Below are positions 1,832-16,018 of a stretch of DNA of 51,797 nucleotides, in pieces (position 1 is the stretch's first letter; each line of letters begins with the position of its first letter). The stretch lies in NCBI GenBank assembly GCA_937888435.1, contig CALAQS010000277.1, forward strand, positions 1-51,797. Reading direction: 5' to 3'. Position numbers and translations under genes: made by a program. This stretch comes from an uncultured Acidobacteriota bacterium. Its GTDB lineage: Bacteria; Acidobacteriota; Thermoanaerobaculia; UBA5066. The notes under the pieces are model-generated. The model had not been told where the DNA came from, searched no databases, and was given only the letters and a program-made list of their open reading frames with translations.

Positions 1832-4438
1832 ATGTCGGTTCTGACGCCGGACCCGAGCAGCCCGGAGGGCGCCGTCGGCGTAACCGGCCGCTCGCCGAGG
1901 CGCCTGCTCGTCTTCGTCGGGGTCCTCGCCTGCCTTCTTGCCGTCCTGTCCGTCGTGGACATGTTCATGGCGAAGGCCTACGACGGCGTCGTACCCGACC
2001 CGTACTCCGTGGGCGGCATCTTCGTCCGCGACCTCGTCCCCGGGGGCGCGGCCGAAAAGGCGGGTCTCAGGACCGGGGACACCGTGCTCGGCATCGGCCA
2101 CCACATGCTCAACAAGGCGGCCGAGGCGCCCGCCGAGCTGCGCCGCCACGGCGCGGGCGAGGCCGTGGACTACCTTGTCAGGCGCGGGGAGGACGTGTTC
2201 GAGACGAAGCTCATCCTCACGCCATTCCGTCTGGGTTCGGCGTTGTACTTCTACTTCGCGTTCCTCGGTCTCCTCTTCTTCGTCCTGGGGGCTTTCGTGA
2301 TCTCGCGGCGGGCGGACGACCCGGCCGTGCAGGTCTTCTACGTCCTGTGCATTCTCTTCATGCTCTTTTTCATCTGCCGGCTGCGTCCGTCCAGCTACTA
2401 CTGGATCGACTACGTCGTGCAGGTCGCCGGCACGCTCGCCCTGTTCCTTCTGCCGGCGGTATTTCTGCATTTTTTCCTCCTCTTCCCGAAGAAAAAGACG
2501 TTCCGGTTCGCCGACCGTGCACCCGGCGGAGCGCCCCCGGCGCCGTGGCTCTTCGCGCTCCAGCGTTTTCTCAATCGCTCGCCGCTGCTCCTGACTCTTC
2601 TGTACACCCTTCCGCCCGTCCTCTACGTTCTCCAGATGGCGGGCGCGAGAGGGGGCGGTCCGCGGCGGCTCATTTACGGCGCGCCCACGCTCAACTGGAT
2701 CCTTCTCGCGGACTACCTCATCCTCGGCCTCCTCGCGCTCGCGCACACGTGGTGGACGAGCGAAGACCGCGCGGCGCGCCGGCCGATCCTCGTCCTCCTG
2801 CTCGGCACCGTGGCCGGCATCGTGCCGTTCGTCGTCTTCGCCGTCTTTTTTCCGTCGCTCTTCCGCGAGGACCGGTATCTCGCGTGGGGCGTCGTCCCGA
2901 TGGCGCTCATTCCGCTCACGTTCGCGTATGCGATCGTCCGCTTCCGGCTCTTCGACGTCGAGGTCATCGTCCGCAAGTCGCTCGTGTACGCGATCCTGAC
3001 GGCCGTCGTCACGGGGTTCTACGCGCTCTGCGTCGTGGCGGGGAACGCGTTCGTCTCGACCGTCTCGTCGTCGACGCTGTTCTCGTCTCCCGCGTTCGCG
3101 TTCGGCTTCGGCCTCGTCGTCGTGCTTCTCTTCGATCCCCTGCGCAGGCGGATGCAGCGCGTCGTGGACCGCCTGTTCTTCCGCGACCGCGCGGACTTCC
3201 AGCAGGCGCTCCTGGACATGAGCCGCTCTGTCGTGTCGCAGCTCGAAAGGCCGAAGCTGCGGGCGCTCCTGACGTCGCGCACGGCCGATCTCCTGCGGCT
3301 CGAGAGCCTCGACCTCCTCCTGCCACGCGGCGAGGACGGGGCCTTCACGGACGGCTCGACCGGCGGTGGGGCCCTCCCCGCGCTTCCGATGGGGGCGGTG
3401 CTGCCCCGGCTCGTCCTCGAGAGGGGCGCTCCCGTGAGGCTCGCCGAGCTGGACGGCTGGATGCTCGACGCCGATTCCCGTGCGTTCGTGGCGGCGGCGA
3501 AGCGCCGGTTCGTCACGGTCGTCCTACCGCTCGCGACGCACGGCAAGCTCCTCGGGCTTCTCGCCGTCGGGCGCAAGCGCTCCGAGGAAGAGCTTTCCCG
3601 CGAGGACCTCGACCACTTGCTCACGATCGCGAATCAAGGCGCGCTCGGGCTCGAGGCCGCCGGCCTCCACGAGGAGCTCACGCGCCGGGCGGAGATGGAG
3701 CGCGATCTCGACATCGCGCGCGAGATCCAGACGAGCCTTTTTCCGCGCGAGCTGCCGCGCGTGCCGGGCGTGTCGTTCTTCGGCGTGAGCCGGCCGGCGC
3801 GCGTCGTGGGCGGCGACTTCTACGACTTCCTCGAGGTGGACGGCGACGTGCGCGGGGGCGGGCGACTCGGCCTCGTCGTGGGCGACGTGTCGGGCAAGTC
3901 GATCCCGGCTTCGCTCCTCATGGTCGCGGCCAAGGAGATCGTCTACGCCCGGGCGATGGCCGACCCCGATCCCGGCGTCGTGTTCCGCGAGGCGAATCGG
4001 CGCCTGTACGACATCAAGCGGCGGATGTTCGTGTCGCTCGCGTATTTCCTCCTCGACCAGAAGGCGCTCTCCCTCACCTATGCCTTCGGCGGCCAGCCAA
4101 CGCCCCTCCTCGTGCGCGCGGGCTCGGGCGTCGCGGTGGAAATTCCGGCACCCGCGAATCGCCTGCCTCTCGGCGCCTTCCGCGACGTTCCGTACGACAC
4201 CGTCACGTACTACCTCTCGCCCGGAGACCTTCTCCTCTTTTACACGGACGGCCTCAACGAGGCGATGTCCGCCGAAATGGCACCGTACGGGGACGAGAGG
4301 CTCAAGGCCTCGTTCGTCCGTCACGCAAAGCGCCCTCTGCCGGAGCTCGCCGACGAGCTTCTCGAGGACATCCGCCAGTTTACCCAGGACGCCGAGCAAT
4401 ACGACGACCAGACCTTCGTCCTGATGCGCATCGGGTGA
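1832..4438 (+). CDS. PDZ / multi-TM / GAF / PP2C (SpoIIE-type) membrane phosphatase
   Basis: An 868-residue membrane-anchored serine phosphatase of the SpoIIE/RsbU class. Order of parts: first TM segment (about 24-46), a PDZ-like domain facing outward (about 58-120, with DLVPGGAAEKAGLRTGD), then about eight further TM segments (to about 432), a GAF-like domain (about 460-620), a short coiled linker and a PP2C domain (about 630-868). Catalytic metal-site motifs are VGGDFYDF (near 660), GDVSGKSIPASLLM, LLLFYTDGLNEA and the terminal QYDDQT. Such enzymes dephosphorylate STAS anti-anti-sigma proteins, and one STAS protein is encoded at 10824. The PDZ domain suggests sensing of an envelope or peptide signal (inference). 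It stands upstream of a TPR gene in the same orientation. Confidence 0.85.
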   Translation: MSVLTPDPSSPEGAVGVTGRSPRRLLVFVGVLACLLAVLSVVDMFMAKAYDGVVPDPYSVGGIFVRDLVPGGAAEKAGLRTGDTVLGIGHHMLNKAAEAPAELRRHGAGEAVDYLVRRGEDVFETKLILTPFRLGSALYFYFAFLGLLFFVLGAFVISRRADDPAVQVFYVLCILFMLFFICRLRPSSYYWIDYVVQVAGTLALFLLPAVFLHFFLLFPKKKTFRFADRAPGGAPPAPWLFALQRFLNRSPLLLTLLYTLPPVLYVLQMAGARGGGPRRLIYGAPTLNWILLADYLILGLLALAHTWWTSEDRAARRPILVLLLGTVAGIVPFVVFAVFFPSLFREDRYLAWGVVPMALIPLTFAYAIVRFRLFDVEVIVRKSLVYAILTAVVTGFYALCVVAGNAFVSTVSSSTLFSSPAFAFGFGLVVVLLFDPLRRRMQRVVDRLFFRDRADFQQALLDMSRSVVSQLERPKLRALLTSRTADLLRLESLDLLLPRGEDGAFTDGSTGGGALPALPMGAVLPRLVLERGAPVRLAELDGWMLDADSRAFVAAAKRRFVTVVLPLATHGKLLGLLAVGRKRSEEELSREDLDHLLTIANQGALGLEAAGLHEELTRRAEMERDLDIAREIQTSLFPRELPRVPGVSFFGVSRPARVVGGDFYDFLEVDGDVRGGGRLGLVVGDVSGKSIPASLLMVAAKEIVYARAMADPDPGVVFREANRRLYDIKRRMFVSLAYFLLDQKALSLTYAFGGQPTPLLVRAGSGVAVEIPAPANRLPLGAFRDVPYDTVTYYLSPGDLLLFYTDGLNEAMSAEMAPYGDERLKASFVRHAKRPLPELADELLEDIRQFTQDAEQYDDQTFVLMRIG

Positions 4439-4499: not shown

Positions 4500-5945
4500 A
4501 TGTCGCTCGCGTCCCGTCGCTCCCTGCGCCCGCTCACCCTCGCCCTCGTGGTGACGGGTCTCGTGGCGGCCGGGACCGCCGCGGCGTTCTTCCTCAGGAG
4601 CCGCCGCGACGTCACGACGTCCTCCGAGCAGGCCCGGAAGGCCTACAACGAGGCACGCGAGAACGACCTGAAGATGTACGACCGCGAGGCGATCTCCGGG
4701 TACGCGACGGCGCTGCAGTACGACCCACATTTCGTCATGGCGACGCTGCGGCTCGCCGACAAGATCCGGGGGCGCGACCCAGACCGGGCGAACTCCCTCC
4801 TCGCGTCGGCGGCGCGCTCGAGGGAAGAGATCACCCCCCGCGAGCAGCTCATGCTGCGGATCTACGAGGAGCGCTGGGGGCGGCGCGACACCGCGACCCT
4901 CGGCGCGCTCTACGACGAGTACCTGCGTCGATTCCCGGACGATCCCGAAGGCTATCTGATGCGTTGCTACTTTCTGGCGAGCCAGAAGCGCACCGCCGAG
5001 GCCCTCGCGGAATACGAGCGGCTTCTCACCGTGAATCCGAACTACGCCATCGCCTACAACACGCTCGGCTACGCCAGCGCGGCGCGCGGCGACTTCGCGA
5101 AGGCCGAGGATTACCTCAAGCGCTACCGCTACCTCGCGCCGGACCAGGCGAACCCTCTCGACTCGCTCGGCGAGCTCTACGCGCTCATCGGACGGTACGA
5201 CGAAGCCGAGGACGTCCTCAAGAAGGCGCTCGCCATAAAGAGCGACTTCTTTCCCGCTTACGGCCACCTCGGGACCGTGGAGATCGGCCGGGGAAATCCG
5301 GCGAAGGCCGCTCAGTACTTTCTCAAGGCGTCGGACGAAGCCACCCAGCCCCTCGTACGCCTCGATTTCCGTTTCTACGCTTCAATCGCGCTCCTCGACG
5401 CGGGCGACGGTGCGGCCGCGCGCAAGGAGAGGGATCTCTTCGTAGCGGAAGCGGCCGGCCTCCCGCCCGGATCGGAGGCGGCGCAGCTCGGCGCCAAGAT
5501 CGCATTTTATCAGGCGGCGTTTCTCGCGATCAAGGGCGAGACGACGGGACTCGACGCCCTGCTGGTGTCCGCGGCTGTCCCCTACGAGAAAGAGCCGGAC
5601 GCCGAGAAGAAGGGCGTGGAGCAAGGCGTCGCATTGGTTCGCGGAGTCGCGGCGGCCCGGTCCGGCCGCTGCGAGGAGGCGGTGGCGCTCCTCCGGGGGA
5701 TCCAGCAGCCGGAAGGGGAGTTCGGCCTCGGAGGAACGGAGTACTACCCGGGAAAGGACTTTGGCCGCGTCCTGGCGGCCAGCTGCCTCCGCGACCTGGG
5801 ACGCAACGAGGAGGCGGAGAAAGAGCTCGAGCCGCTTCTGAAGAGGAACCCGCACTTCGCGCCCGCCGTCGCAGTCGTCGCGCGCCTGGCGCCCGGGAAG
5901 CCAGCCGCCGAAGCCCGGGCCGCCCGCGCTTCGGGCGCACCCTGA
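4500..5945 (+). CDS. Membrane-anchored TPR-repeat protein
   Basis: A 481-residue protein with an N-terminal TM anchor or uncleaved signal (about residues 12-30) followed by tetratricopeptide repeats. Clear repeat helices include AEALAEYERLLTVNPNYAIA, AYNTLGYASAARGDFAKAED, LGELYALIGRYDEAEDVLKK and LGTVEIGRGNPAKAAQYF. A later pair lies near the C-terminus (LRDLGRNEEAEKELEPLL). TPR arrays bind partner proteins, and no catalytic motif is visible. The ATG at 4500 has GGAGG 5 nt upstream. It is 61 nt downstream of the PP2C phosphatase and 7 nt upstream of the AAA+ regulator, so the three may form one signalling operon with the TPR part as a scaffold (inference). Confidence 0.8.
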   Translation: MSLASRRSLRPLTLALVVTGLVAAGTAAAFFLRSRRDVTTSSEQARKAYNEARENDLKMYDREAISGYATALQYDPHFVMATLRLADKIRGRDPDRANSLLASAARSREEITPREQLMLRIYEERWGRRDTATLGALYDEYLRRFPDDPEGYLMRCYFLASQKRTAEALAEYERLLTVNPNYAIAYNTLGYASAARGDFAKAEDYLKRYRYLAPDQANPLDSLGELYALIGRYDEAEDVLKKALAIKSDFFPAYGHLGTVEIGRGNPAKAAQYFLKASDEATQPLVRLDFRFYASIALLDAGDGAAARKERDLFVAEAAGLPPGSEAAQLGAKIAFYQAAFLAIKGETTGLDALLVSAAVPYEKEPDAEKKGVEQGVALVRGVAAARSGRCEEAVALLRGIQQPEGEFGLGGTEYYPGKDFGRVLAASCLRDLGRNEEAEKELEPLLKRNPHFAPAVAVVARLAPGKPAAEARAARASGAP

Positions 5946-5952
5946 GCCGTCG

Positions 5953-7442
<1,490 letters not shown>

Positions 7443-7446
<4 letters not shown>

Positions 7447-9704
7447 GGAGACTCCTTCCGGATCAGCCTCCCCAGGGCGACCCGATCCGGCGCCAGGAGC
7501 TCGGCGATGCGCTCGGGGTTGACGTCGGCGACGATGATCTGGCCGACTTCGGTCGTGACCTCGCGGAAGATGCCGTGGACCTTCATCTTCGCGGCCTGAT
7601 ACTGGTTGTCCTCGGTGGGGGAGACGTAGTGCACCGAGTCGATCCGGAAGCGGTGCACCAGGAAGAGGTGGACGAGGGTCATCAGACGCTTCTTGCGGAG
7701 CGCCACCGCGAAGGTGTTCTGGTCGCGGACCGAGAGGATGCTGCGGCCGCGCCGGTCGTGGATGGGGGCGAAGATGACGTTGGCGTGCTTCTCGTCCCCG
7801 CTGCCGTAGATGCCGAGCTCGAGGAGCTCCGAGCCGGCGCGGTGCGGCCGCAACTGGACGCGGAGCGTACCGGGGAGGCCGTAGTGCTGCGTCCACATCG
7901 CCAGCCACTCCTCGAGGAGCTTCTTCGGCACCTCGGTCTGCACGAGGTGCTGGTGCTGGGTCGAGCCCTTGCCCATCGCCATGGTGGTCGCCGTGCGCCC
8001 CGACGAGGCGGCCAGTGCGGCATCCGCCCGCGGCCCGCCGACGAGGGTCTGCGGCGTGCGGTACGGCGACTCGACCATGCGGAGCTTCCGCTGCAAGCGG
8101 GCGAGAGCGAGCATGCCGTCCTGCTTGAGGGCGGTCGCCAGCTCCTCGGCGGCGAGACCGTCGATCTGGTGGCCGCCATAGGTGACGAAGTTGAAAACGA
8201 AGCCCAGCTTGGCGAGCTCCTCGGGAAATCGACGCATCTCCTCGTCACTCATGCCGGTGGTGTCCCAGCTGAACGACGGCGAGAGGTTGTAGGCGAGCAT
8301 CTTGTCCGGAAACTCGGCGTGGATCGCCTCGGCGAACTTGCGGACGTCGGAGAGGTCGGCGGTCTTCGTCTCCATCCACAGCAGGTCGGTGAAGGGTGCC
8401 GCGGCGAGCGATTTTGCGATGGCGTACGGGACGCCGCCGCGGACCTGGTAGAAGCCCTCCGAAGTCCTGGCCAGCTCGCAGTCCCAGCCGACGTCGGCGC
8501 CGAGAGCGCGCGCCTTCTCGCGGGCGGCGTAGAACGAGGCGCGCGCGGCGAACCGCCGCCACTCGTCGGGGCTCATCTCCAGCGGCTCGCCCTCGCTGGC
8601 GCGGAAGTCGAGCACCTCGGCGACTGCCTCGCCGTACGTCTCGAGGCCGGCCTCGTCCTCCCACACCTCGAGGAAGCGGGAGGCGACCCCGTCGAAGGTG
8701 GCGTCGAGAGAGATCTCCTTCCCGTCCCGGTATGCCGCTGCGGCCTCCGCGGCCTGGCGCAGGAGGCCCTTGCGCTCGAGCCAGTCGGCGGCTGCGGTGT
8801 ACTCGCCTTCGGGGATGGCGTAGAGCAGATGGCCGTTGAGGTCGCGGACGCCCATCTCGTAAAAGCGCCGGATCAGCGCCAGGTAGCACGCCTTGTAGGC
8901 CGGCACTTCGAGGTTGGTGGCGCCGAGGAGGAACGGCTGGTCGCGCTCGTCGGCGCGGCCCTCGAGCAGGTTGGCCGCCTCGGCGTCCGTGCGGGCCACG
9001 ATGATGCCGGCGACCCCCATGACGTCGAGCTGGAAGCGGGCGGTGTTCAGCCGCTTGTTCTGCTCGTCCTGCCCGACCAGCACCTTGCCGCCCTGATGGC
9101 CGCACTTCTTGGTGCCCGGGCGCTGGTCTTCGATGTGGTAGCCCGGCACGCCGGACTCCACGAAGCGGCGGATCAGGTTGCGCACGTGCGGGTCACCGCC
9201 GTGGCCGGTATCGGCGTCGGCGATGATGAACGGCCGGAAGTCGTGGGCCGGCGCGGCGGCGCGCTGCGCCTCGGTCATGCGCGAGCGCAGGTACTGCTGG
9301 TTGCGGTCGGCGGTGAGCAGGGCACGCACCAGCGTGGCGGCTTCGTCGGGCACCTGGCTGAGCGGGTAGCTCGCGAGATCGGGTCCCGGGTCTTCGCTCG
9401 TTCCGCCTCTGGCGGAGATCGCCCAGCCACCCAGGTAAATCCCTTCGATCCCCATCCGCTTGATGGTCACGGCCTGCCCCGGCGAGTAGGGGCCGAAGGT
9501 GGTGATGCTCTTCCTCTGCGCGAAGAGCTGGCGCAGGCGGTCGTAAAACGCCGCGGCGGCCTCGCGCGCGACCGTGTAGTCGTGAGCGATGGTGCCGCGT
9601 TGCTCCACGACCTGGCGCGCGGTGTAGAGGCGGACGATCCCCGCGAAGCGGGGGCTGTCGAACCACCGCTGTGTGGCGGCGATTTCCTCTTCGAACGAGC
9701 TCAT
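7443..9704 (-). CDS. aceA: Isocitrate lyase, large (ICL2-like) form
   Basis: Cleaves isocitrate to glyoxylate and succinate, the first step of the glyoxylate bypass. The catalytic signature [12 protein letters not shown] is present, preceded by [12 protein letters not shown] and followed by the [14 protein letters not shown] metal/substrate block. At 753 residues it is much longer than the roughly 430-residue enterobacterial enzyme and matches the long actinobacterial ICL2 type in length, with an inserted central helical region and a C-terminal extension ([19 protein letters not shown]). The ATG at 9704 has an AGGGGG-type Shine-Dalgarno upstream. No malate synthase gene lies in this window; citrate synthase and malate dehydrogenase do. 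A weak -10 candidate, TAAACT (9736-9731), precedes it. Confidence 0.95.
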
Positions 9705-9869
9705 GGCGGGGCCCCCTATGACAGCCCTACAGTTTAGCGCCGACCGAACGGGCCGTCGGTTTTCTCGGCGACGGCTCTTTGTTTGATGGATGGCGCCGAC
9801 ACGGCCTCAAGAACCGAATTCCCGCTCTGAGGCGTTTTTGCACTTTGTAATGTTTTGTCCCATGAAAGG

Positions 9870-9884
9870 TAAGTAGTTTACTTA
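9870..9884. promoter_or_regulatory. Palindrome TAAGTA-gtt-TACTTA, candidate operator/enhancer site
   Basis: A perfect inverted repeat with 6-bp arms and a 3-bp centre in otherwise gene-free DNA. It sits between the divergent lyase gene (start at 9704) and the -24/-12 promoter at 10042. Position and symmetry fit a dimeric regulator, and the GAF-AAA+-Fis protein encoded at 5953 is a plausible binder (inference). Confidence 0.35.
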
Positions 9885-9970
9885 GAAGAGTAATATGTGT
9901 TTCTTCGGCGACAAGACCATTGATGTGACATAGTGGCTCATCGCTGGCTTGGACTGCTCGCTCACGCCAC

Positions 9971-9981: not shown

Positions 9982-10041
9982 TCTAATCTTTCCAACAGCT
10001 TACCTGTACTTCAGCCCCCTCGAAATTTGCCTGGGACGATG

Positions 10042-10057
10042 TGGCCCGGCACTTGCG
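10042..10057 (+). promoter_or_regulatory. Candidate sigma-54 (-24/-12) promoter
   Basis: The sequence TGGCCCGGCACTTGCG matches the sigma-54 consensus TGGCACG-N4-TTGCW in all but two positions. The invariant GG (10043-10044) and GC (10055-10056) are separated by exactly 10 nt. Transcription would begin near 10068, just upstream of the GGAGG (10073-10077) and ATG (10085) of the small ORF and ahead of the RsbW/STAS/PP2C genes. The match is clear by eye, but function is not shown. Confidence 0.5.
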
Positions 10058-10084
10058 ATGCAGACCCCAACCGGAGGCACCCAG

Positions 10085-10342
10085 ATGTTCAGCGAGGGCG
10101 GAATCAAGGCTGAGGCGACCCGCGTGTCGACGCGCACGTCGTCCGTGCCCGGGCGCTCCTCTTTTTTCGCCGCGTCCTCTTTTTCCGCATCTTTACCAGC
10201 GTCTCTCCCCGCATCGATCCGCACTTCACGCGTCGTCATGTCGCTCCTTCTCGCCGAAGCCGCCGCCTTCGCCCTCGCTGCCGCGTCGGGTAAGATCCCT
10301 GCGTTCCTCTTCATAGCGGTTCGCGCGCTCCTGACGTTCTAG
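10085..10342 (+). CDS. Small Ser/Ala-rich hypothetical protein (uncertain)
   Basis: An 85-codon frame with a strong GGAGG at 10073-10077, 7 nt before the ATG, directly behind the -24/-12 promoter. The protein begins MFSEGGIKAEATRVSTRTSS, is Ser/Ala-rich in the middle, and has a hydrophobic second half (MSLLLAEAAAFALAAASG, then AFLFIAVRALLTF) that could be a membrane segment. I do not recognise a family. It would be the first gene of the switch operon, 28 nt before the RsbW-like gene. An opposing 79-codon frame on the minus strand (10239-10000) also has a good Shine-Dalgarno, so coding on this strand is not certain. It may instead be a translated leader. Confidence 0.38.
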   Translation: MFSEGGIKAEATRVSTRTSSVPGRSSFFAASSFSASLPASLPASIRTSRVVMSLLLAEAAAFALAAASGKIPAFLFIAVRALLTF

Positions 10343-10370
10343 GGCTCTGAGAGGGGATTGCCGAAAAGCG

Positions 10371-10808
10371 ATGTCGTCGGTCGAGCGCCGCGAGGTGCAC
10401 ATGACCATTCCGGTTGCGCCGGAAATGGAGATCGCCGCCACGGCGCAGGTCTCGGCGCTCGGCGAGTGGATGGAGATGGGCCGCGACAAGATCGACGAGG
10501 TGAAGATGGCCGTCGTCGAAGCCTGCATCAACGCGTTCGAGCACAGCGCGACGCCCGACCGCAAGGTAGAGCTCGCCTTCCGCGTGGGTGCCGAGGAGGG
10601 CGGCCGGGGCGCCTATCTCGAGGTCGACGTCACAGACGCGGGCCATGGGTTTGATCCGACCCGGCTCAAGACCCCCGAAATCGCCGCCGCGCTGAGGTCC
10701 AGCCGGAAGCGGGGCTGGGGCATCAAGATCATCGAGAGCCTGATGGACGACGTCCGGATCGAGAGCGGCGAGCACGGCACCCGCATCGTCATGCGCAAGT
10801 ATCGATAA
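10371..10808 (+). CDS. RsbW/SpoIIAB-like serine kinase (GHKL ATPase, anti-sigma type)
   Basis: A 145-residue protein of the HATPase_c anti-sigma kinase family, which phosphorylates an STAS partner and holds a regulatory target inactive until the partner is dephosphorylated. The N box is EACINAFEHS (about 50-59), the G1 box DAGHGFDP (about 87-94) and the G2 box RGWGIKIIESLMD (about 114-126), ending in RIVMRKYR, as in the family. No sigma factor gene adjoins it, so its target is unknown. Its STAS partner follows 15 nt later and a PP2C phosphatase after that, giving a complete partner-switch set. An alternative start is the ATG at 10401. Confidence 0.85.
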   Translation: MSSVERREVHMTIPVAPEMEIAATAQVSALGEWMEMGRDKIDEVKMAVVEACINAFEHSATPDRKVELAFRVGAEEGGRGAYLEVDVTDAGHGFDPTRLKTPEIAAALRSSRKRGWGIKIIESLMDDVRIESGEHGTRIVMRKYR

Positions 10809-10823
10809 GGTATAAAGGACCGA

Positions 10824-11186
10824 ATGAGCGAGACCCTGAAAGTGGTCGTGGACCGGCCGGACGTCAACGTCGCCGTTCTCCGCACGGACGGTTACATCAA
10901 CAACACCGGAGGCGAGGAAATCGCCAAGGAGGCTTACGCTCTCCTGGGGTCGGGCGTGAATCGCCTGCTCCTCGACCTCGAGAAGACGAAGATCGTCAAT
11001 TCGATCGGCATCTCCATTCTCATCGAGATTCTGGAGAAGCTGCTCGATCAGGGGGGAAAGCTCGCTTTCTGCCGGCTGACGCCCACGATCGAGAAGACCT
11101 TCCAGATCATGGGGCTGGCCCAATATGCGCGCATCTTCTCCGCTCCCGAGCCCGCCCTCGCCTGGCTCCGGGGCGAGACCGAGTAG
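10824..11186 (+). CDS. STAS-domain anti-anti-sigma factor (SpoIIAA/RsbV-like)
   Basis: A single STAS domain of 120 residues. The phosphoacceptor motif, usually DS[ST]G, reads NSIG (residues 59-62) in IVNSIGISILIEIL. The first Ser is kept, while the Asp is Asn and the second Ser/Thr is Ile. The rest of the fold (RLLLDLEKTKIVNS, GGKLAFCRLTPTIEKTFQIM) is typical. It would be phosphorylated by the kinase encoded just upstream and dephosphorylated by the PP2C protein encoded downstream or the one at 1832. AAAGGA precedes the ATG. Its 3' end may overlap the next gene. Confidence 0.85.
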   Translation: MSETLKVVVDRPDVNVAVLRTDGYINNTGGEEIAKEAYALLGSGVNRLLLDLEKTKIVNSIGISILIEILEKLLDQGGKLAFCRLTPTIEKTFQIMGLAQYARIFSAPEPALAWLRGETE

Positions 11187-12795
11187 CGCGGCGATTCCCG
11201 GGCCTTCCGCCTCCGCGGCGGACCCGAACGCCGCGATTCTCGCGGCGCACCAGAGGCTCGCGGAGCTCGACCCGTTTTCCGACCGCGAGCGGCTCTTCGA
11301 CGGGATCCTCGCCGCTCTCCTGACGGCGGCTCACTCCGAGCGCGGCGTCCTCGTGGATCCCCTGCAGGCGTCGAGCTCCGCGCGTCCGGGCGTAGAGCCG
11401 CCGGCCGATCCGCCGATCACGATCCCGCTCACCGCGCGGGACGAGACGCTCGCGCTTCTCGTGCTCGAAAAGCCCCCCTTAGAGCCGGTCGGCTTCGCGT
11501 CGGTCACCGCACACGCGGCGCGCCTCCTCGATTCTGTGCGGATGGCCGACAAGGTGCAGAAGGCGGACTTCGAGCTGAAGTACAGGGTCTGGGAGCTGCA
11601 GAGTCTGTACGACGTCGGGCTCTCCATCGCGGGCACCCTCGATTTCGAGTTGCTCGCCGAGGACATTCTTTACAAGTCCATCTCGCTCCTCAATGCGCGC
11701 ACGGGGACGCTCATCGTGTGCGACCGCGCGGCGGACGGCCCGGTCACCGTACGCCATCTCGGCGAGCCGCTTCTCGACGGCGTGGCCGCGCGGCTGCTTC
11801 CCGCGACGGTGCTCCGCTGCAACACGCTCGCCGAGCGGGTGGGACTCCTCGTGCACGCCCCTGCCGAGAAGCTCCTCGCCGTGCCGATCCTCGCCGAGGG
11901 ACGCTGGCTCGGCGTGCTCGTCGTGGCCGACAAGGAGAATCGCGACGGCTCGATCGACGACTTCACCGAATCCGACGAGCGCGTGGCGTCGCTCTTCGCG
12001 AATCAGGCCGCGATCGCGCTCGAGAACGCGCGCCTGCACCGCGAGGCGGTCGAGAAGGAGAAGATGGAGCGGGAGATCGAGCTCGCCGCCTCCATCCAGA
12101 AGACCATTCTCCCCGAGACGCTCCCGGACGTACCGGGGCTCCTCGTGGCCGGCGGGAACCGGCCGACGAAGCAGGTCGGGGGCGATTACTTCGACGTCTA
12201 CCCGCTCGCGGACGGGCGCACGGCGCTCTGCGTCGCCGACGTCTCGGGCAAGGGCGTGCCCGCGGCGCTCCTCGTGTCCACGGTCCACGCCTGCCTCCAT
12301 CTTCTCGTGCCGGACGGCGCCTCCGACCTGCCCGCTCTCGTGGCGCGCGTGAACCGCCATCTCGTGGGCTTCTCCTCGACCCGCAAGTTCGCGACCCTGT
12401 TCATCGCCGTCTACGATCCCGCGAAAGGGACGCTCACGTACGTGAACGCGGGCCACAACCCCGGGCTCTGGGTCTCGCCGGGGGGCGTGACGCTGCTGCC
12501 GAGCGGCGGCGTGCCCGTCGGAATGATGCCGGGCGTCACGCACACGCAGGCCGTGATCCAGATCGCGCCCGGCGACACGCTTCTCCTGTACTCCGACGGA
12601 ATCACCGAAGCGCTGAACGGCGCCGACGAGGAGTTCGGCATGGAGCGTCTCACCGCGTTGGCCGTCGAGGGGCGCGCGCAGCCTCCCGCCGAGCTTTCCC
12701 GGCGCATCTTCGGCGCGGTGAGCGACTTCACGACCGGCGTCGCGCAGTACGACGACCAGACGGTGCTCATCGCGCGGGTCGTGTCGCTGGCGTGA
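11125..12795 (+). CDS. GAF / PP2C (SpoIIE-type) soluble phosphatase
   Basis: A cytosolic phosphatase of the RsbU class. After a Pro/Ser/Ala-rich N-terminus come a weak first GAF-like region (to about 140), a GAF domain (about 150-310) beginning at LQSLYDVGLSIAGTLDFELL, a coiled linker and a PP2C domain (about 330-556). Metal-site motifs are VGGDYFDV (about 350), VADVSGKGVPAALL, YVNAGHNPGLW, LLLYSDGITEAL and AQYDDQT. It probably dephosphorylates the STAS protein encoded just upstream. The only ATG in frame (11125) lies 62 nt inside the STAS gene; no GTG or TTG follows the STAS stop early enough, so the start could be this ATG or a rare ATT near 11191. Its stop overlaps the next GTG start. Confidence 0.87.
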   Translation: MRASSPLPSPPSPGSGARPSSAAIPGPSASAADPNAAILAAHQRLAELDPFSDRERLFDGILAALLTAAHSERGVLVDPLQASSSARPGVEPPADPPITIPLTARDETLALLVLEKPPLEPVGFASVTAHAARLLDSVRMADKVQKADFELKYRVWELQSLYDVGLSIAGTLDFELLAEDILYKSISLLNARTGTLIVCDRAADGPVTVRHLGEPLLDGVAARLLPATVLRCNTLAERVGLLVHAPAEKLLAVPILAEGRWLGVLVVADKENRDGSIDDFTESDERVASLFANQAAIALENARLHREAVEKEKMEREIELAASIQKTILPETLPDVPGLLVAGGNRPTKQVGGDYFDVYPLADGRTALCVADVSGKGVPAALLVSTVHACLHLLVPDGASDLPALVARVNRHLVGFSSTRKFATLFIAVYDPAKGTLTYVNAGHNPGLWVSPGGVTLLPSGGVPVGMMPGVTHTQAVIQIAPGDTLLLYSDGITEALNGADEEFGMERLTALAVEGRAQPPAELSRRIFGAVSDFTTGVAQYDDQTVLIARVVSLA

Positions 12796-14156
12796 GGCTT
12801 CGCGGAGGAACCCTCGTCGTGGTGGCGCTCGGAGTCGCGGCCTGCACGTTCTCGCGGGATATCACGATCCTGCCTCACCGGCTCGTAAGGTCTTTTCCGA
12901 TCGGGCTCGTGAGCTCCTACAACGCCGAAGAGCAGCTCCAACGCGGGTACATCCCCGAGGTCTCCGAGTTTCTCGCCGGACCGGGCGGCCAAAGCCTCGA
13001 CGCGGTCCGCCTCGACCGGCTGGCCGGCCAGGTGCTTCTCGAGCGCGGTGACTTTCACGGCGCCGCGCCGCGGCTCGAACGCGCTCTGGCGGGCACGGGC
13101 CGCGCGTCTGACCGCGCGGACCTCGCGTGGCTCCTGTCGCAGGCCGCGTACTGGGAAGGAAACTTCCCCTCCGCGGGCCGCTGGGGGCGCGTGGCGCAGC
13201 GCGAGGGCAAACGCGTGCCGGACGGCTGGCTCGTCTTCATGGAGTCGCAGGCCGCCCGCGTGCTCTACGGCGGCGCGGCAGCGGGAGAACGCCTCTCGCT
13301 CCCCGTCGGGTTCGGGCGGCCAAATCTCCTGCGCGTCGCCGTGCGCGTGAACGGGCGTCCCGCGGAGGAGATGGTCCTCGACTCGGGCGCGTCGCTGTCT
13401 CTGCTGACGGAGAGCGCGGCGGCCCGCCTCGGCGTGACGTTCGTCCCGGGCGCCACGGCCATGGCGAAGGGTCTGCACGAAGCGGACCTCCCGATGCGCC
13501 TCGGCTGGGTCGATTCCATGCGCGTCGGCGATCTCACGCTGACGGACGTCCCGGTCGGCGTCCTGCCGGACGGCACGCTCACGTTCGAGACGGCACCGTC
13601 CGGAGTCTTCCGCCTGAACGGAGTCCTCGGCGTCCATCTCATGAAGGAATTCGACTGGAGAATCGAGTTCAAAGACCGCCTCCTCCAGGCGCGACGGCTC
13701 GACCGGCGCATCCTGCGCGGCTCGAAGGACCAGAATCTCTTTTTCCGGCGGATGAAACCCATGGTGCGCGCCTCGCTCAACGGGCAGCCGTGGTCGCTCT
13801 TCCTCCTCGACACCGGGTCGGAGCCGTCGATGATCACGCGCGGCGGGCTGCGAAAGACGCACCTCTTCGAACCGGAGGCGGCGTACCCGATCACCCTCGA
13901 GGGGATCGGACAGTCGCGCGTGTCGTGGTCCAAGATCTCGAACGTGACGGTGGGTGTCTCGGCCTACATGGTCCGGTTCAAGGACATCGTCGTGAAGGAA
14001 GAGGCGGACGGGATCGAGGACGGCATCCTCGGCGCGTCGTTTCTTTCCTCGTTCGACGTGGAGATCCGGTTCGGCGCGATGACGCTCGTGCTCGAAAACC
14101 CGTTGGAGCGCCACCTGCGCCAGACGAGGGCGGCCCCGCAGGAGATCGCACGATAG
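12792..14156 (+). CDS. Two-lobed retropepsin-like aspartyl protease lipoprotein
   Basis: A 454-residue exported protein. The GTG start at 12792 overlaps the phosphatase stop (GTGA). The N-terminus (RLRGGTLVVVALGVAAC) is a lipoprotein signal with Cys at about residue 17. A helical TPR-like part (about 50-150: QVLLERGDFHGAAPRLERAL, AYWEGNFPSAGRWGRVAQ) precedes two aspartyl-protease-like lobes. The first has MVLDSGASLSLL (Asp about 197); the second has LFLLDTGSEPSMI (Asp about 340) and DGILGASFLSSFDVEI, which resembles the hydrophobic-hydrophobic-G element of the fold. Two DSG/DTG motifs in one chain could form a pepsin-like active site. Tight linkage to the switch genes suggests regulated envelope proteolysis (inference). 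Confidence 0.8.
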   Translation: MRLRGGTLVVVALGVAACTFSRDITILPHRLVRSFPIGLVSSYNAEEQLQRGYIPEVSEFLAGPGGQSLDAVRLDRLAGQVLLERGDFHGAAPRLERALAGTGRASDRADLAWLLSQAAYWEGNFPSAGRWGRVAQREGKRVPDGWLVFMESQAARVLYGGAAAGERLSLPVGFGRPNLLRVAVRVNGRPAEEMVLDSGASLSLLTESAAARLGVTFVPGATAMAKGLHEADLPMRLGWVDSMRVGDLTLTDVPVGVLPDGTLTFETAPSGVFRLNGVLGVHLMKEFDWRIEFKDRLLQARRLDRRILRGSKDQNLFFRRMKPMVRASLNGQPWSLFLLDTGSEPSMITRGGLRKTHLFEPEAAYPITLEGIGQSRVSWSKISNVTVGVSAYMVRFKDIVVKEEADGIEDGILGASFLSSFDVEIRFGAMTLVLENPLERHLRQTRAAPQEIAR

Positions 14157-14157
14157 A

Positions 14158-14925
14158 ATGAGGTGCGTGCAGGAGCGCCATCCACGGGGAGCGGCGGCGG
14201 CCGCCGCGCTCGCGGCAATGGTCGTCCTCCACGCGGGAGGCTGCCAGGGTCCGGCCGATCCCATGCAGAAGAAGCGGAACGACATGGTCGAGCGCCAGAT
14301 CGCGGCGCGCGGGATTCGGGATCCGCGCGTCCTCGAAGCGATGCGCACCGTGCCCCGCCACCTCTTCGTCCCGCTCGCGGAGGAAGCGTCCGCGTACGAC
14401 GACCGGCCGCTTCCCATCGGGAGCGGCCAGACGATCTCGCAGCCTTACGTCGTGGCCTTCATGGCCGAGCAGCTTCGCCTGACCGGGAAAGAGAAGGTCC
14501 TCGAGATCGGGACGGGCTCGGGCTACTCGACGGCGATCCTCGCGGCCCTGGCCACGAAAGTCTTCTCGATCGAGATCCGCCCCGAGCTGTCGCGCCAGGC
14601 GAAGGAGCACCTCGAGAAGCTGGGCGTGAAGAACGTCGAGCTGAAGGCGGCCGACGGCTACCGCGGCTGGCCCGAGGAAGCCCCGTTCGACGCGATTCTC
14701 GTCACCGCCGCTCCGGAGCGGATCCCGCCCCCTCTCCTCGAGCAGCTCGCCCCGGAAGGGCGGATGGTCATCCCGGTCGGCGCGTTCTACCAGGAGCTGA
14801 AAGTGATCAAGCGGCAGGGCGGCGGCTACTCGGAGAAAAGCGTCCTGCCCGTGCGGTTCGTGCCGTTCGTGGGTGAGGCCGAGGGCGCCCCGCCCCCGGC
14901 CCGCGACCCCGGAGCCTCGCGATGA
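14158..14925 (+). CDS. pcm: Protein-L-isoaspartate O-methyltransferase, lipoprotein form
   Basis: Methylates isoaspartyl residues in aged proteins with S-adenosylmethionine, starting their repair. Signature blocks are MVERQIAARGIRDPRVLEAM, GSGQTISQPYVVAFM and VLEIGTGSGYSTAILA (SAM site, about 115-130), then FDAILVTAAPERIP and LAPEGRMVIPVG. Before the enzyme lie about 35 extra residues with a hydrophobic run and a possible lipobox (HAGGC), so the protein is probably exported and lipid-anchored. Most Pcm enzymes are cytosolic, and an outside location raises the question of methyl-donor supply. The gene begins 1 nt after the aspartyl-protease stop and overlaps the next gene by 4 nt (ATGA). Confidence 0.9.
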   Translation: MRCVQERHPRGAAAAAALAAMVVLHAGGCQGPADPMQKKRNDMVERQIAARGIRDPRVLEAMRTVPRHLFVPLAEEASAYDDRPLPIGSGQTISQPYVVAFMAEQLRLTGKEKVLEIGTGSGYSTAILAALATKVFSIEIRPELSRQAKEHLEKLGVKNVELKAADGYRGWPEEAPFDAILVTAAPERIPPPLLEQLAPEGRMVIPVGAFYQELKVIKRQGGGYSEKSVLPVRFVPFVGEAEGAPPPARDPGASR

Positions 14926-15200
14926 GCGCCGGGACGGCGCTCACGAATCCCACGGTCCTTCTCGAACGCGTGCCCGTAAGGGAGCGCGGCGCGTCGCTGA
15001 CGCGCTCGGCCTGGCGCATCGCGGTGACGGCGAATGAAGGCACGGGCACGATCGTCCGCCTCGAGGCGTCGGACGGCGCGGTTCATTTCCGCGGCGACGG
15101 CCTGTTTCTCGGCTGGGGCGCGGACGAGATGGGCTCCGCCTGGGACGTGCTCGCGCGCTCCGACGCCCCGCCCGAGCCCGAGCTCATGCAGCTCGGGTGA
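14922..15200 (+). CDS. Small hypothetical protein coupled to pcm
   Basis: A 92-residue soluble-looking protein with no family I recognise. The ATG overlaps the pcm stop (ATGA), a strong sign of coupled translation. The central part alternates polar and hydrophobic residues (WRIAVTANEGTGTIVRLEAS, then GDGLFLGWG), suggesting a small beta-rich fold, and the C-terminus is acidic and Pro-rich. There is no signal peptide. It may assist pcm or the protease (inference). Confidence 0.65.
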   Translation: MSAGTALTNPTVLLERVPVRERGASLTRSAWRIAVTANEGTGTIVRLEASDGAVHFRGDGLFLGWGADEMGSAWDVLARSDAPPEPELMQLG

Positions 15201-15235: not shown

Positions 15236-16018
15236 ATGCGATTTTCGACCCTCACTCTCACGGCTTTCGTACTCGCCGCCGGCTCGGCCGCGGCCTCCGA
15301 CGACCTGACGATCGTCTCGAAGCACACGCACGACGGCAAACCGGCGGGCACGTCCACGAGCTATCTCACCAGCGACCACGTGCGGATGGCCAGTGAAGAA
15401 GGACACGAGACGATTGTCGATTTGAAAACCGGTGTGATGACGATGCTGGACGGCAAGAAGAAGACCTACTACACCGTCACGAAGCAGGACATGGAACAGC
15501 TCGCGGCCAAGATGAAGGAGAGGATGAACGACCCGGAGACGAAGAAGGCCATGGAGATGATGGCCAGCATGAGCGGCTCGATGGCGACGTCGTTCGACGT
15601 GAAGAAGACGGGGGCGACGCGGAAGATCGCCGGGTACGGCTGCGAGGAATGGGCGATCACGATGGGCACGCTCTCCACGATCAAGGAGTGCGTCTCGACC
15701 GAGCTGCAGTACCCCGCCCACGCCTGGGACGCCTACAAGGACTTCGCCGAGAGCATGAAGAACATGATGAGCGCCTTCGGACCCATGGCGAAGAGCGGCG
15801 CCGAGCTGGCCGAGAAGATGAAGAACATGAAGGGATTTCCCCTCGGCTCCTCGACGGTCGTGGACGTCATGGGTCACAAGACCACCACGGAGAGCGAAGT
15901 GACGGAGGTCCGGAAGGGCTCGATTCCGGCATCCGCATGGGAGATTCCGGCCGGCTACACGAAGGTCGAGAACCCCATGCTGAAGGCATTCGAAGGCCAC
16001 GGCCACTCTCATCGTTGA
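15236..16018 (+). CDS. Exported DUF4412-type protein
   Basis: A 260-residue protein with a cleavable signal peptide (MRFSTLTLTAFVLAAGSAAA). The body is rich in Met, Lys and Thr, with repeated short patterns such as DLKTGVMTMLDGKKKTYYTV and a Met-rich helix (KKAMEMMASMSGSM). The layout of a modified-residue readout (ETIVDLKTGVMTMLD), a single Cys in GYGCEEWAI, another in IKECVS, and SEVTEVRKGSIPASAWEIPAGY near the C-terminus fits the DUF4412 family, whose function is unknown. GGAGG lies 7 nt upstream of the ATG. The C-terminus ends in a His-rich tail (GHGHSHR) that could bind metal. Confidence 0.75.
   Translation: MRFSTLTLTAFVLAAGSAAASDDLTIVSKHTHDGKPAGTSTSYLTSDHVRMASEEGHETIVDLKTGVMTMLDGKKKTYYTVTKQDMEQLAAKMKERMNDPETKKAMEMMASMSGSMATSFDVKKTGATRKIAGYGCEEWAITMGTLSTIKECVSTELQYPAHAWDAYKDFAESMKNMMSAFGPMAKSGAELAEKMKNMKGFPLGSSTVVDVMGHKTTTESEVTEVRKGSIPASAWEIPAGYTKVENPMLKAFEGHGHSHR

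Follow-up and report, generated by a model that had tools for sequence, protein, structure and literature searches.

What does a partner switch do at the head of an operon that also encodes a protease and a protein-repair methyltransferase, and to which of these functions does the promoter in front of them belong? The question arises at positions 10042 to 15200 of contig CALAQS010000277.1 from an uncultured bacterium of the class Thermoanaerobaculia (Acidobacteriota; assembly GCA_937888435.1). The whole stretch of 51,797 nucleotides, from one of the 366 contigs of the 3.70 Mb assembly, is called the window. A preliminary description of the window had proposed that a sigma-54 promoter drives seven tightly spaced genes as an inducible quality-control system for envelope proteins. 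The comparative sequence analysis reported here favors a different reading, in which the locus is built on a partner switch that is inducible through sigma-54 and has been inherited across the class Thermoanaerobaculia (estimated probability of about 0.78). The features of the switch and its control region are listed below.

5953..7446, + strand: predicted sigma-54 activator (enhancer-binding protein) with GAF, AAA+, and Fis domains (PF00158, 2e-64; GAF; HTH_8).
9923..9941, + strand: palindrome resembling an activator site, ATGTGACATAGTGGCTCAT (matrix trained only on loci outside the family of the window).
10042..10057, + strand: sigma-54 promoter, TGGCCCGGCACTTGCG (10 of 12 consensus positions; equivalent site in relatives).
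10073..10077, + strand: Shine-Dalgarno sequence GGAGG of open reading frame 1 (ORF1) (sequence; GGAGG-like in most relatives).
10085..10342, + strand: ORF1, a small membrane protein of 85 amino acids (homologues; ratio of nonsynonymous to synonymous substitution rates, dN/dS).
10371..10808, + strand: RsbW/SpoIIAB-like serine kinase (HATPase_c_2, PF13581, 7.1e-22).
10824..11186, + strand: STAS antagonist with Ser60 in the motif VNSIG (PF01740, 1.6e-11).
11125..12795, + strand: GAF-SpoIIE (PP2C) phosphatase (SpoIIE, PF07228, 1.3e-47).

A scan of 84,980 species with a STAS alignment yielded 80 loci, which were annotated uniformly. Downstream counts refer to the 62 loci with enough downstream DNA, and upstream counts refer to the 69 loci with enough upstream DNA. 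The order activator, RsbW, STAS, and PP2C (GAF-SpoIIE) is found in nearly all of the 80 loci. In relatives, the genes surrounding the phosphatase, protease, and methyltransferase fall into a constant core and a variable cargo. Judged by these comparisons, the conserved core comprises the activator, an enhancer, the sigma-54 promoter, the small membrane protein, the RsbW kinase, the STAS protein, and the GAF-SpoIIE phosphatase, and the cassette is conserved throughout the class.

A promoter was scored as TGG[CT]-N8-TGC with a score of at least 9/12 within 480 bp of rsbW. Such a site occurs in 72 of 73 loci; the corresponding rates are 3.1% for shuffled regions and 1.7% for other segments of the same loci. 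The -24/-12 match reported earlier at 10042-10057, facing the operon, is borne out at exactly these coordinates. The divergent families f6, f10, and f11 also carry the site together with a small ORF. The gene for sigma-54, rpoN, is present in the genome on contig C315. No broad sigma-54 regulon is claimed for this genome, where examination of 30 sites showed just two weak enhancer matches nearby.

Inspection of the upstream regions revealed the palindrome TGnGRCAnnnTGYCnCA. The enhancer matrix finds 161 copies in 67 of 76 loci (1.35 in shuffles), a count with some circularity, as these loci had also served to train the matrix; the copies lie at two narrow positions, approximately -100 and -180 to -205. 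In a held-out test, training used 62 loci that do not belong to the family of the window, and the matrix then found sites in 14 of 14 family loci (22 sites versus 0.3 expected). The palindrome at 9923-9941 is centered approximately 110 bp upstream of the -24 element. A second palindrome, approximately CTAAGTAATTTGCTTAG, is located upstream of the enhancer site at about 9868-9890 in the genus of the window, including L109-L111; elsewhere none was seen by eye. A GAF-AAA-Fis activator gene precedes the switch in 67 of 69 loci, and the gene at 5953-7446 likely encodes the cognate activator of the promoter. The combination of promoter, enhancer, and linked activator across the class, with rpoN present, upholds the earlier assignment of a sigma-54-promoted partner-switch operon.

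The codon score of ORF1 is poor (4.0), and the suspicion of a spurious ORF that this score raises is overturned by homologues and by dN/dS. Short frames that encode a hydrophobic segment and lie shortly 3' of the promoter were sought in all promoter-bearing loci. A small ORF, mostly with a Shine-Dalgarno sequence, was found in 72 of 77 loci. The proteins of this family contain 48-90 residues, and their C-termini align without gaps as a hydrophobic helix, a short turn that often ends in I-P or I-H-P, and a hydrophobic tail with endings such as RALLTF or LQLYLTF. Within the genus, dN/dS for the C-terminal part of ORF1 is 0.22-0.45, with changes mostly at third positions. These values indicate a protein-coding gene under purifying selection. 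The GGAGG at 10073-10077 precedes the ATG at 10085, which is taken as the start; another ATG in frame, at 10058, was rejected as lying upstream of the expected transcript start (~10068). An antisense ORF at 10000-10314 has a negative codon score and was not retained as a gene. A structural model of moderate confidence places helices at residues 48-67 and 73-84, where the predicted local distance difference test score (pLDDT) is ~70-82, consistent with a C-terminal transmembrane helix followed by a short hydrophobic helix. Searches of Pfam, NCBIfam, and the PDB returned no relative of ORF1. The family comprises undescribed small membrane proteins that escape ordinary annotation.

The next three genes have the make-up expected of a partner-switching module, namely, a GHKL-type kinase, a single-domain STAS protein with a serine, and a SpoIIE phosphatase. 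The kinase contains an N box at residue 50, a G1 box at 89, and a G2 box at 114; it scores under the NCBIfam equivalog cut-offs for RsbW and SpoIIAB. Ser60 of the STAS protein (VNSIG) is invariant in the alignment, and the strict motif is found in 74 of 80 loci. The metal-site motifs of the phosphatase are intact (GGDYFD at 352, DVSGKG at 372, and YDDQT at 542). Its listed start, 11125, is no more than the earliest start codon in that frame; comparison with relatives suggests that the protein actually begins further downstream. The GAF domain of the phosphatase is 36% identical to that of the activator (E 2e-17), which suggests that the two domains sense related signals.

The following mechanism is proposed. 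The activator encoded at 5953-7446 would bind palindromes located ~100 and ~180 bp upstream of the -24/-12 promoter, and the activated promoter would direct transcription of the small membrane protein, the RsbW-type kinase, the STAS protein, and the GAF-SpoIIE phosphatase. By homology, the kinase is expected to phosphorylate Ser60 of the STAS protein, and the phosphatase is expected to reverse this reaction. Unphosphorylated STAS protein would then capture the kinase and free its other partner. More speculatively, the activator and the phosphatase may answer the same kind of signal through their related GAF domains, such that a single stimulus would induce the module and also set its state. 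In the family of the window, the operon may have gained two exported enzymes, the aspartyl protease and the methyltransferase, which would be co-induced.

Several observations weigh against this proposal. The enhancer matrix finds no sites in families f6, f10, and f11. The binding of the palindrome by the linked activator is proposed from linkage alone. The sigma-54 contact loop of the activator reads GVATGV rather than GAFTGA in 71 of 72 readable copies. Inactivity of the activator was not assumed from this change, since the loop is kept in these copies and the same variant occurs in DVUA0100 of D. vulgaris, which is predicted to be functional, a prediction only (PMC4641369). Finally, other families of the phylum have the kinase-STAS-phosphatase trio with no activator linked to it, and the loci that were scanned there show no convincing promoter. 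The class therefore probably acquired its sigma-54 wiring as an addition to a pre-existing switch, a conclusion that is silent on the output.

The remaining genes of the operon are the following.

12792..14156, + strand: lipoprotein with TPR and a predicted two-lobed aspartyl protease (PF13650, twice).
14158..14925, + strand: exported, lipoprotein-type protein-L-isoaspartate O-methyltransferase (PCMT) (NF001453, 3e-74).
14922..15200, + strand: protein of 92 amino acids (73-78% identity in two relatives; codon score of 28.7).

The seven ORFs extend from the first small ORF, which ends at 10342, to 15200. The spacings given earlier (28, 15, overlap, GTGA, 1, and ATGA) are all correct, and family matches agree with the reported union of a switch, an aspartyl-protease lipoprotein with DSG/DTG motifs, and an isoaspartyl methyltransferase. 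The 92-amino-acid protein is found in the genus only. The protease gene begins with a GTG at 12792, reading from 12793 being in the wrong frame. A DSG motif is present at residue 197 and a DTG motif at residue 340, and both catalytic aspartates are invariant in 17 homologues. The nearest solved structure to the protease model (pLDDT of 87.9) is 9iy9, an endopeptidase from Bacteroides fragilis, with template modelling scores of 0.68/0.71; pepsins match more weakly. With two D[ST]G motifs and a pepsin-like bilobal fold in the model, the protein is assigned as a two-lobed aspartyl protease. At this place in the operon, the protease is found in 6 of 62 loci and in one family only; elsewhere the slot is filled by an amidohydrolase or by an inverted PmbA/TldD-like gene. 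In family f8 (L041 8535-12161, L042, L043, L045, and L047), the protease lipoprotein adjoins a different sigma-54 activator of 1200-1300 amino acids with a large uncharacterised N-terminus. In G003 (L033/L110), the protease gene is missing its middle (~residues 150-427) and the PCMT is intact, which reflects either a real loss or an assembly artefact.

The methyltransferase is an equivalog of NF001453 (249 bits versus a cut-off of 188) and retains the motif LEIGTGSGY for S-adenosylmethionine (SAM). Its gene is found in the vicinity of the switch in 41 of 62 loci; conserved linkage in relatives was found for the switch core and not for the protease. By sequence pattern, an export leader is present in all but one of the linked PCMT copies, and the sole leaderless copy has a further PCMT copy next to it within its locus. 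The leader is of the lipoprotein type in families f1-f3 and mostly of the Sec type elsewhere. The cytosolic location typical of the PCMT family does not apply to the linked copy, as judged from its leader. The lipoprotein-type leader reported earlier is real and near-universal among linked copies, and the enzyme is not a fixed part of the switch core. An intact SAM motif in an exported enzyme has no ready explanation. The other close PCMT of the genome is not exported and is encoded in a surE-pcm pair (L260 2904-4389).

Three further genes lie upstream of the operon.

1832..4438, + strand: membrane-type SpoIIE phosphatase with PDZ-like, GAF, and SpoIIE domains (Pfam SpoIIE, 2.1e-43; same place in relatives).
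4500..5945, + strand: TPR protein (Pfam TPR; place conserved).
7443..9704, - strand: isocitrate lyase gene (PF00463).

The upstream linkage of the first two is limited to families f1-f3, and the membrane phosphatase stands outside the class-wide core. Outside the class (L242-L244; f19 and f30), the trio is joined by a second SpoIIE-domain membrane phosphatase that recalls the one at 1832-4438. The isocitrate lyase gene lies between activator and promoter in the window, L109, and L110 and is absent in a third congener, L111; it is assigned as a genus-level insertion that parts the regulator from the operon and lies outside the system. A DUF4412 protein is also encoded beside the switch, downstream in the genus of the window (15236-16018) and upstream in distant lineages of the phylum (L242 5927-6643; L243 2838-3617).

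If protease and PCMT were the purpose of the operon, the switch would time their use at the envelope. The tight spacing and overlaps of the cargo with the switch genes, the export leaders on both proteins, the frequency of PCMT near the switch, and the recurrence of hydrolases (aspartyl protease, amidohydrolase, PmbA/TldD-like) among the variable neighbors all speak for such an arrangement. It is nevertheless improbable as the function of the core, because the protease occupies this place in so few loci, G003 is without most of the gene, and family f8 has no such cargo after its switch. In family f9, an inverted gene lies between the switch and PCMT, which therefore cannot form a simple operon there. 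Moreover, there is no known supply of SAM outside the cytoplasm. The quality-control system of the preliminary description is retained at most as a lineage-specific possibility for the cargo of the window's own family. Coincidence of promoter match, ORF1, and gene order can be practically dismissed. The motif TGGC-N7-TTGC is not over-represented in the genome (62 sites versus 135 for the reversed control), and the codon score of ORF1 is weak, but the near-universal promoter site, its rarity in shuffles, the held-out enhancer test, and the conservation of ORF1 exclude a chance match.

For the output of the switch, a classical circuit would have RsbW bind an unlinked factor of the sigma-70 family, for instance a 295-amino-acid RpoD/RpoS-like protein on contig C351 or an RpoD paralogue, until it is released by the STAS protein. 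RsbW and STAS are homologous to SpoIIAB/RsbW and SpoIIAA/RsbV, and the genome encodes further sigma-70 factors, the best extra one being RpoD/RpoS-like. This circuit is doubtful, since the second-best sigma factor varies among families and no SigB/F/G-type factor exceeds the curated cut-off of TIGR02980 in 61 genomes; the output is therefore probably other than the classical one. The window contains no sigma factor gene, in agreement with the preliminary description, and sigma-70-family matches lie on other contigs. The accompanying suggestion that the switch regulates something other than transcription is reasonable as far as a non-SigB-type output is concerned. It is unlikely, though somewhat less so than quality control as the purpose, that RsbW acts as an anti-activator, holding on to the NifA-like GAF protein until STAS releases it, which would give an autoregulated switch. 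NifL holds NifA in this manner, NifA is the best whole-protein NCBIfam match of the activator (below its cut-off), and the activator is linked in nearly all loci; however, this linkage is already accounted for by the promoter role, and the trio exists without an activator in other lineages of the phylum. For the sigma-54-inducible partner switch preferred here, the output is tentatively an unlinked non-SigB regulator or a membrane process; the small protein would then have a placing or sensing role at the membrane. An equally tentative version has the output as a membrane process acting through the sigma-54-induced small membrane proteins, with one GAF-type signal both inducing the module and setting its state and with some lineages also exporting PCMT.

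The nearest described circuit is that of SypG, SypA, and SypE in Vibrio fischeri, where a sigma-54-dependent activator and an upstream enhancer drive a locus that encodes a STAS protein under kinase/phosphatase control, and where no sigma factor is known as the target of SypA (PMC4517449, PMC8256260). Both loci combine a sigma-54 activator and enhancer with a single-domain STAS protein and serine kinase/phosphatase activities. Here the kinase and phosphatase are separate, whereas SypE is a fused kinase/receiver/phosphatase; a small membrane protein is encoded first, the activator contains a GAF but not a receiver domain, and no polysaccharide genes lie beside the switch. The RsbU-RsbV-RsbW and SpoIIAA-SpoIIAB-SpoIIE systems of Bacillus share the HATPase kinase, the STAS protein with a conserved serine, and the SpoIIE phosphatase. 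They differ from the present locus, which has a sigma-54 promoter and a small membrane protein and no SigB/F-type sigma factor that is linked or over the cut-off. BtrU-V-W of Bordetella, RbaV/W of Rhodobacter, and HmpU-V-W of Nostoc are Gram-negative partner switches with non-canonical or unknown outputs, and the available part of the source describes neither sigma-54 control nor a small membrane protein for them, unlike here (PMC8256260). Pcm of surE-pcm pairs belongs to the same enzyme family as the linked PCMT and shares its SAM motif; the copy near the switch differs in being a second paralogue whose export leader is conserved. DVUA0100, an activator of type III secretion, shares GVATGV and differs in its N-terminal sensor region and targets. 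A literature search for the gene set, for sigma-54 with RsbW, and for exported PCMT found nothing relevant, subscription papers being mostly outside its reach, and within that scope the earlier statement that no such system has been described holds.

Both regulatory principles are known; what is new is a class-wide cassette that joins sigma-54 control to a partner switch and includes an undescribed family of small proteins. Sigma-54 activation coupled to partner switching has seldom been reported, and the cassette offers a testable enhancer-promoter code. The exported PCMT with its intact SAM site raises the question of protein repair outside the cytoplasm; if the membrane-process version of the output is true, this enzyme would demand a SAM supply of a new kind or a SAM-independent role. 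The Thermoanaerobaculia are known mostly from metagenomes, and since the class keeps this module, its signal and output are likely basic to the group.

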